Assembly (NCBI GenBank): GCA_020725465.1
Contig: DYEY01000057.1
Span: 1 to 64,000, forward strand
DNA length: 64,000 nt
From: Dethiobacter sp.
GTDB lineage: Bacteria; Bacillota; Dethiobacteria; Dethiobacterales; Dethiobacteraceae
Direction: 5' to 3'
The notes beneath the pieces are model-generated. The model had not been told where the DNA came from. It made no database searches and was given only the letters and a program-made list of their open reading frames with translations. Shown in pieces: positions 5,197 to 7,692 of this stretch. Position numbers and translations under genes: made by a program. Position 1 is the first letter of the stretch; each line of letters opens with the position of its first letter.

Positions 5197-5419
5197 TGGC
5201 ACACCCCCCCGATGAGTATTTACAGTTTGCTGTCTGGGTATTGTTTCTGCGGAACCCATGATTATTCCTTGATTCGCAAACACAAAATTGCCTCTTTTTT
5301 TTACTGGGATTTTAAAAAAAATATTTTGGGCAGGAAAATAATAATTTAAGTAGAACAAATATAGTTGTTTTTAAGTGTTGCTAAAATATTAACAGTTTAG
5401 AAAAAGGGAGGAAATTCTT

Positions 5420-6217
5420 TTGAAGAAAGCCGTAAGATTGTCAGTGATCGGTATAATGATCCTGGCACTGGTTTTTGCGCTGGCGGCATGCGGGAAAAAG
5501 AAAACCGTGGTAAAGAGGTTTGACACCACACCTTTGGCCCTGCTAGAGCTGATTAACGGCGGTGTTGACGCGGTGGTGGCCGATTCTCCCGTTGTTCTGG
5601 AGTTCATTAAAGAAAACCCCAACTCCAACCTGGAGGCCTTTGGTGATGACAACTTCGAAAAAGAATTCTACGGTATTGCCATGCGCCAGCAAGACACCGA
5701 CATTCACAACCTGATTAACGAAGGCTTGAGGAAAGTAAAAGCAAGCGGGGAGTACAACAAGATTTTTAACTTTTACTTCGGCGACGGAACTCCCCACCGG
5801 GTTGCCGAGTCCAAAAATACCCTTAACCGCACCCTCAATGTTGCCATGGATATGGCCTATGCACCTTTTGAGTCGATTAATCAGCAGGGTGAACCCGAAG
5901 GGTTTGATGTGGATCTGATTCGTGCTATCGCCGCTGAAATGGGATTTGCGGTAAACCTGATCAACACCGACTGGAACGGAATTATTCCCTCTCTGTTGGC
6001 CGGCAATTCCGATTTAATCATTTCCGCCATGACCATTACCGAAGAGCGGGCCAAGAGTGTTACCTTCTCTGACCCCTACTTTGAAGCCACCCAATATATT
6101 GCGGTTAAGAAAGGGTCTAACATCAAAAGCCTGGCTGACCTGGAAGGAAAGAAAATCGGGGTTCAGCTGAACACGACCGGCGATTTCGCTGTTTCGGAAC
6201 GTTTCAACGTGAAATAA
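5420..6217 (+). CDS. Circularly permuted amino-acid ABC binding lipoprotein
   Basis: A 265-aa lipoprotein (signal ending LAAC, Cys24) of the polar amino-acid binding family, with its halves in reversed order. Residues about 31-121 (VKRFDTTPLALLELINGG to YNKIFNFYFG) are what normally forms the C-terminal part of such a protein. After a linker (about 122-136), residues 137-265 are the usual N-terminal lobe and first part of lobe 2 (TLNVAMDMAYAPFES, GFDVDLIRAI, SAMTITEERAKSVTFSDPYF, GVQLNTTGDFAVSE). It stops just where the C-terminal part should begin. Together the halves make one complete domain. The start is TTG after AGGGAGGAAA. The permease and ATPase of the same system follow. It could be a genuine permutation, a remnant of a tandem duplication, or an assembly artefact. 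Confidence 0.85.
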   Translation: MKKAVRLSVIGIMILALVFALAACGKKKTVVKRFDTTPLALLELINGGVDAVVADSPVVLEFIKENPNSNLEAFGDDNFEKEFYGIAMRQQDTDIHNLINEGLRKVKASGEYNKIFNFYFGDGTPHRVAESKNTLNRTLNVAMDMAYAPFESINQQGEPEGFDVDLIRAIAAEMGFAVNLINTDWNGIIPSLLAGNSDLIISAMTITEERAKSVTFSDPYFEATQYIAVKKGSNIKSLADLEGKKIGVQLNTTGDFAVSERFNVK

Positions 6218-6299
6218 GAGAACATCTTCTTGCTAAAAATACCAGCGGGTGCTACTTCGGTACGCCCGTTTATTTTTAGCAGGGAAAAGGTGGTATATG

Positions 6300-6986
6300 A
6301 TGGATTTTCGCTGGGATGTCATACTCAACAATCTCCCCCTCCTTTTCCGGGGGGTCAGTCTTACGTTTCAACTGACAGTAATTGCGGTTGGTATAGGTAC
6401 AATTATCGGACTGGTTTTTGCACTGATGCGGGTGTCTCACTTCAGGCCACTGGTCTGGCTGGCCAAGGGTTACATCGACTTTCTGCGCGGTACCCCCCTG
6501 CTGGTACAGATATCTTTGGTACACTATGCCGCTCCGCAGTTCGTCAGCCAGCTTCTGGGCAGGCAGACAAACTGGCCTGCCCTGATTTCAGCCATAATTG
6601 CCCTCAGCCTGAACAGCGGCGCCTATATTGCGGAAATCTTCCGGGGCGGCATCCAGTCCATTGAACGGGGGCAGATGGAGGCCGCCCGCTCTCTTGGCAT
6701 GACCTACGGGCAGGCCATGCGTTACATCATCCTGCCCCAGGCTTTCAGGCGCAGTATTCCTCCTTTGGGCAACGAATTCATCGCCATGTTAAAAGACTCT
6801 TCCCTGGTTTCGGTCATAGCGTTGCACGAGCTGATGATGGCGGGAAGGGTCATCGCCGGCAGGACGTTCCGTCCTTTGGAAGTTTATATGGCAGTGGCGA
6901 TCCTGTACCTGCTGATGACCATGACCATCTCCCAGTTCGTTTCTTACATGGAGAGGAGGCTTGGCAAGAGTGATCAGAGTGACTAA
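6300..6986 (+). CDS. Polar amino-acid ABC transporter permease
   Basis: The 228-aa HisM/GlnP-type permease has about five membrane segments and the EAA loop [20 protein letters not shown], which docks with the ATPase. [11 protein letters not shown] is the family signature near the first loop. It should form the membrane channel for an amino acid captured by the upstream lipoprotein. Two ATGs are adjacent; the second (6300) has the better spacing from AAAGGTGG. Its end overlaps the ATPase gene, which indicates translational coupling. Confidence 0.93.
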
Positions 6987-7692
6987 TCTGAAGAAGAACT
7001 TTGGCCGGCTGGAAGTTCTGCGGGGGATATCCTGCCAGGTGGAAGAACAGGAAGTGGTTGTGGTCATTGGCCCCTCCGGCTCCGGCAAAAGCACCTTTCT
7101 CAGATGTTTAAACCAGCTGGAAGCCGCCACTGAGGGGCAAATATATATTAATGGCGTAAACATAACCGATCCAAGGACCAATATCAACAAGGTGCGCGAG
7201 GAAGTGGGCATGGTTTTTCAGCGTTTTAACCTCTTCCCCCACAAAACCGCGCTGCAGAATGTGGCCCTGGCGCCCATTAAGGTAAAAAAAATCCCGCCCC
7301 CCCAGGCGGAAGAAATGGCCATGAAGCTCCTCACCCGGGTGGGTCTTGAAGACAAGGCACACCAGTACCCGGACAAGCTGTCCGGCGGGCAGCAGCAGAG
7401 GGTGGCCATAGCCAGGGCGCTGGCCATGCACCCCAAAATTATGTTGTTTGACGAGCCCACCTCTTCTCTGGACCCCGAAATGGTAGGTGAGGTTCTGGAG
7501 GTTATCAGGGACCTGGCCCGGGAGGGGATGACCATGGTGGTTGTAACCCATGAAATGGGCTTCGCCCGGGAGGTGGGGGACAGGGTGCTCTTCATGGATG
7601 AAGGCCTCATTGTGGAAGAAGGCCCGCCGCAGGAGCTGTTTAGCTCTCCCAAAAACAAACGCACCCAGGCGTTCCTCAGCAAAATCCTTTAG
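6970..7692 (+). CDS. Polar amino-acid ABC transporter ATPase
   Basis: The 240-aa GlnQ/HisP-type ATPase contains Walker [10 protein letters not shown], the ABC signature LSGGQQQR, Walker [14 protein letters not shown] and the switch histidine in VVTHEMGFA. It powers the transporter formed with the permease whose end it overlaps by 17 bases. The GTG at 6970 sits 10 bases after AGGAGG and gives the family-typical start [11 protein letters not shown]; a TTG at 6961 is too close to that site. The gene ends before a strong terminator. Confidence 0.95.

Follow-up and report, generated by a model that had tools for sequence, protein, structure and literature searches.

A probable natural circular permutant among the family-3 amino-acid-binding lipoproteins of Dethiobacteria, and repeated permutation within the same family

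Background

TpMglB-2 (Tp0684) of Treponema pallidum is a naturally circularly permuted sugar-binding ABC lipoprotein, classed as 'Type Ic / Cluster Bc'; both ligand binding and conformational change have been shown for it (PMC4990184). Circular permutation has also been recognised by structure, with CPSARST, among the glycine betaine-binding proteins OpuAC and ProX, the molybdate-binding proteins and CysB (PMC2395249). How circular permutants originate, and how frequently, has long been asked, and recent natural examples are few.

The window analysed here is a 64,000-nucleotide stretch of Dethiobacter sp. (contig DYEY01000057.1, positions 1 to 64,000). One of its genes very probably encodes a true circular permutant, inherited by descent, of the family-3 polar amino-acid-binding lipoproteins (SBP_bac_3, type II/cluster F). 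Like TpMglB-2, the product is a permuted lipoprotein encoded beside its own permease and ATPase and conserved in relatives (PMC4990184); like the OpuAC/ProX case, it represents circular permutation between type II binding folds (PMC2395249).

Results and discussion

Chain order of the window protein

The features of the locus are listed in Table 1. The window protein matches Pfam SBP_bac_3 (PF00497) with 134.1 bits (cut-off 26.4, E 3.3e-39), split over two stretches. From ordinary-order relatives we built a linear profile with 241 positions; the first part of the window protein aligns at 143-240 of this profile and the second at 14-146, and the protein is therefore a permuted rather than an ordinary member of the family. 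The ordinary N-to-C order of a full SBP_bac_3 domain is not found with this profile. The two parts make up one complete domain, with no gap and an overlap of a few positions at the breakpoint, which lies at about 145 of the model. The same arrangement is seen against solved structures: most of the top PDB-chain matches (phmmer) consist of two out-of-order stretches. In AncQR (4zv1), residues 135-257 of the query align with 8-131 of the chain and residues 30-122 with 142-233.

The initial annotation, made from the letters alone, described a lipoprotein signal followed by the C-terminal third of the domain, a 15-residue linker and the N-terminal two thirds. Coordinates, frame and anatomy are as it described, and the breakpoint falls where it had been placed.

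Two positions bear on the ligand, which is presumably a polar amino acid. The Arg of TITEER and the Asp of VVADSP, which we take from established knowledge of GlnBP to be amino-acid contacts, correspond to R187 and D32 (mature numbering); both columns are invariant in the window family, in the permuted protein L114 and in the permuted L144 group (see below).

Table 1. Features of the permuted binding-protein locus (window positions)
Feature	Position	Strand	Basis or remarks
Permuted binding-protein ORF	5420-6217	+	265 aa, TTG start, stop 6215-6217
Ribosome-binding site GGGAGG, upstream of TTG start	5407..5412	+	sequence reading
Signal peptide with lipobox LAAC, aa 1-23	5420..5488	+	sequence; AF2 helix 2-23
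Lipid-anchor cysteine Cys24, now attached to lobe 2	5489..5491	+	C24 column invariant in all members
C-terminal third of family-3 binding domain, aa 30-121	5507..5782	+	PDB alignments; linear HMM 143-240
15-residue linker, aa 122-136, old C terminus to old N terminus	5783..5827	+	conserved in family alignment
N-terminal two thirds, aa 137-262; ends in lobe 2 after TTGDFAVSERF	5828..6205	+	PDB alignments; linear HMM 14-146
Intercistronic hairpin, binding protein/permease	6218..6300	+	-34 kcal/mol, z -5.74 vs 200 shuffles
Cognate ABC permease, single gene	6300..6986	+	ORF; adjoins permuted gene in 12 relatives
Cognate ABC ATPase	6961..7692	+	ORF; adjoins permease in 11 relatives

Predicted fold

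The mature chain, modelled with AF2 from an alignment of 26 permuted rows, gives a pLDDT of 93.9 and a pTM of 0.86; the five models range from 92.8 to 93.9. An earlier run with 15 rows, in which the signal peptide was included, gave a pTM of 0.63 and a helix at 2-23. The N-part of the AF2 model superimposes on AncQR (4zv2) at 1.7 A over 131 columns with 45% identity (Foldseek, chain-order alignment). Among the Foldseek matches listed, no solved chain fits the full length in permuted order; the best TM is about 0.5. Full-length matches to OpuAC and HisG were considered and rejected as weak (TM 0.4-0.5).

The initial proposal that the linker could leave a complete ligand-binding domain fits this confident single-domain prediction. 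The permuted chain would fold into one two-lobed domain, closing on an amino acid by Venus-flytrap capture. Within lobe 1, the linker would connect the former N terminus with the former C terminus; the new termini would lie in lobe 2, in a loop between helix and strand, so that the lipid anchor would hang from lobe 2. The captured amino acid would then be handed to the permease and ATPase encoded downstream.

It is also conceivable, if unlikely, that the protein is a strand-swapped, obligate dimer, each part of one chain pairing with its complement in the other. Domain swapping is open to permuted and tandem chains alike, and the ArgBP of Thermotoga maritima is a known swapped dimeric binding protein. 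In the present case, however, 15 residues should be enough to bridge the neighbouring old termini, and the monomer is modelled with confidence; a single-chain domain is preferred.

Linear relatives and repeated permutation

The closest linear proteins, L115 and L116, come from other classes of the phylum. They are 57.6/51.6% and 53.2/51.2% identical to the two parts of the window protein; since both match the two parts about equally, the two parts share one type of parent protein. A chimeric origin from two unlike binding proteins was rejected on the same ground, as either part lies at a similar distance from one and the same linear clade. For tree building, permuted sequences were re-linearised by a profile built from linear proteins. 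In the resulting tree (IQ-TREE), the window family (100/99) is sister to the linear clade of L115, L116, L128 and L129 (96/84). Both parts thus trace to one parent and together form one complete domain, as in a natural permutant.

Permutation is not confined to the window family. There are three well-supported permuted groups within the same Pfam family and at least three breakpoints, at about 145 (window), 112 and 186 of the 241-position model. L114, from a genome of another class (G137), has its breakpoint at 112, close to the first lobe crossover. Its sister, the linear L132 from G172, a genome of the same family as G137, shares 76-79% identity with it in each of the two parts. Only three genomes make up the class and order to which G137 belongs, and nothing related to L114 was found in viral contigs. 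The L144 group, found via L144 of G297, is permuted at about 112 and consists of stand-alone lipoproteins or direct permease fusions with ORFs of about 500 aa. In L153, L156-L159, L161-L163 and L199, the new C terminus of the permuted domain, near the former lobe crossover, runs directly into the permease. A fourth set, L165 and L210-L218, has its breakpoint at about 186. Within the L144 group, monophyly of the 112 set with the 186 set, leaving out the linear L168, is not rejected (p 0.116). These two sets may share an origin, and the 186 set may be a separate event or a re-permutation.

The initial annotation expected natural permutations of such proteins to be rare. This does not hold: in at least one further order of the phylum permuted relatives are common, differing in breakpoint and having arisen independently. 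When 398 genomes sampled evenly across the phylum were searched with the junction profile, 7 matched at E<=1e-45, and all seven proteins are permuted. Across the 392 genomes of the order of G297, roughly 40 have full-length matches above 230 bits. About 20 further genomes of this order have contiguous matches starting near profile position 40; the nine that were examined are all permuted at about 186.

The alternative is a single ancient permutation, ancestral to all permuted relatives and with the linear proteins among them as reversions; parsimony counts do not distinguish gain from loss. This is very unlikely: uniting all permuted proteins in a single clade is rejected (p-AU 6e-57), joining the window family to L114 is rejected as well (p 3.7e-4), the breakpoints differ, and L114 is the close sister of a linear protein. 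In a 68-row tree six changes of order are needed, of which four are forced by well-supported branches. Several independent permutations are the preferred reading.

Distribution and conservation

The Dethiobacter genome is 98% complete. It carries one permuted gene, and no other SBP_bac_3 match was found in it; the permuted protein is the sole family-3 binding protein found there. A search of 60 relatives with the window protein yielded full-length, same-order ORFs in G011 (80%), G002 (74%), G029, G014, G049, G010, G016, G015, G008 and G006, as well as contig-end copies in G001 and G018. A dozen separately assembled genomes from separate projects have the identical order in one ORF, with breakpoint and linker kept, at 58-80% identity.

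The initial annotation had proposed a search for the same order in related genomes; within the class, 15 of 98 genomes (families f1, f4 and f5) carry the full-length permuted order with the same breakpoint. No linear ortholog was found in these 98 genomes at E<=1e-45. The named carriers are all MAGs and include Dethiobacter sp. CROMO_A_105, Dethiobacter sp. Tomsk_51_21, Syntrophomonadaceae CSSed165cm_560 and UBA3936; in all of them the permuted order is in a single frame.

Between members, dN/dS over whole genes is approximately 0.03-0.11 and is low in both parts; these values are rough, with dS near saturation. Among the relatives, no frame loss or relaxed selection was seen except in one shortened window-type gene, L015 (G031:C7, reverse strand). 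The frame of L015 departs from the family after about 100 aa; it is probably a decayed copy or an assembly error.

Purifying selection also bears on a rival view, in which the window gene would be what is left of a tandem two-domain protein, truncated or decayed to a pseudogene, and would encode no functional single domain. In tandem proteins of the GlnPQ type, the junction where domain 1 ends and domain 2 begins looks alike; indeed, the tandem GlnPQ domains (6h30) are the only ones among the 60 best PDB chains to cover the junction profile A3 in one stretch. A remnant is nevertheless hardly credible: taken together, the two parts supply one complete domain and scarcely overlap, selection acts on both, and AF2 predicts one compact domain. 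An inherited, working permutant fits better.

An assembly artefact, with two ordinary tandem genes collapsed so that the end of the first precedes the start of the second, can for practical purposes be discounted: tandem family-3 domains do occur in related bacteria (L203, L045) and a collapsed pair would yield the window order, but the genome has no second, ordinary copy, and the many independent assemblies agree on breakpoint, linker and flanking permease and ATPase, so the outcome that the initial annotation named as refuting is not seen.

Operon and transporter

Polar amino acid (PAAT) importers are expected to have adjoining permease and ATPase genes; these are present at the window locus and conserved in relatives. 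The order binding protein-permease-ATPase is retained wherever the contigs extend far enough and is found in 11 relatives. In a twelfth the binding protein is followed by the permease, inside which the examined stretch ends. Most relatives have a hairpin at the same site between binding protein and permease, in several cases followed by a T run. Such hairpins fit the expectation that the binding protein is made in excess of the permease.

With its single permease gene, the system probably has a homodimeric channel, whose docking faces would be equivalent. For such a transporter, it may be of no consequence which lobe bears the anchor.

The initial suggestion that the system works is borne out as far as computation goes: the operon is kept, the gene is under purifying selection and no further family-3 binding protein was found in the genome. 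The function assigned is an inference from family membership, operon and selection.

Tandem arrays and the route to permutation

The permuted window gene most likely arose by in-frame tandem gene duplication followed by trimming at both ends. Possible intermediates can be observed elsewhere in the family. L203 (G821:C2:248000-252800) encodes 969 aa with three near-identical linear family-3 domains in tandem, followed by a permease; it groups inside the L144 group, with permuted relatives. A permuted register, C-(N-C)n-N, is seen in the arrays L204, L205, L206, L220, L221 and L222. Their first piece is a C-part from 114-118 on and their last is an N-part up to 114-119. Pairing of the parts in these arrays could be either between neighbouring C and N, or between N and C with the two ends closing a ring. 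It is plausible that tandem and permuted-register arrays are duplication-trimming intermediates, and that cutting them back to a single unit leaves one permuted domain. These arrays belong to another group, and no intermediate of this kind was found in the window's own family.

Other fusions involving family-3 domains were also observed. Ruoffia tabacinasalis has a 982-aa frame with three tandem linear family-3 domains (L045:2485-5430). In Chloroflexi ADurb.Bin325 an 892-aa frame (L044:5587-8262) fuses a linear family-3 domain to a permuted family-5 (peptide) binding domain, in which profile positions 64-365 come first and 2-51 follow; this is a permutation in another binding-protein family. 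A lipoprotein of Chloroflexi AS06rmzACSIP_578 (L046:3202-5220) fuses a family-3 binding domain to a Peripla_BP_6 domain.

Taken more widely, the family-3 binding proteins of this phylum seem, on balance, to evolve recurrently and widely by permutation. In-frame tandem duplication followed by trimming or register shift would give permuted single domains, permease fusions and arrays; the several breakpoints would all lie in lobe 2, and the anchor would shift from lobe 1 to lobe 2. One family supplies several independent permutations, the L114/L132 pair, tandem arrays and a conserved family in the window's class, which makes the duplication-trimming model and its effects on binding and docking directly testable. 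There is also a consequence for annotation, as chain-order profile and structure searches detect only half of a permuted protein.

Comparison with known systems

TpMglB-2 has a type I fold, a sugar ligand and a breakpoint in the N-lobe, and requires a fourth crossover; the window protein is a type II protein of family 3 with its breakpoint in lobe 2. It falls outside Type Ic, which has the type I sugar-binding fold, as its Pfam matches are to SBP_bac_3 and other type II families only. The permuted part of TpMglB-2 has no clear similarity to its counterpart (13%), whereas both parts of the window protein are strongly similar to linear relatives.

The OpuAC/ProX permutation is deep; it lies between families with less than 24% identity and is visible in structure only. 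In contrast, permutation in SBP_bac_3 is recent and within one Pfam family, where an unpermuted sister as close as L132 exists.

GlnPQ (PMC8025302; PDB 6h30) resembles the window protein in having the order C-part, linker, N-part across its two-domain junction. GlnPQ has two complete linear domains fused to the permease, while the window protein is a single permuted domain and a free lipoprotein.

AncQR (4zv1/4zv2), ArtJ (2pvu), TmArgBP (4prs) and GlnH (1ggg) share sequence family, predicted fold and presumed ligand class with the window protein. They have the ordinary chain order and an anchor on lobe 1; the window protein is permuted, with its anchor on lobe 2.

In the open-access literature, outside which many subscription journals lie, no report of natural permutation in SBP_bac_3 was found. 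Natural permutation of binding proteins is itself already known; what is new here is a permutation that is clear at the sequence level and repeated within one family.
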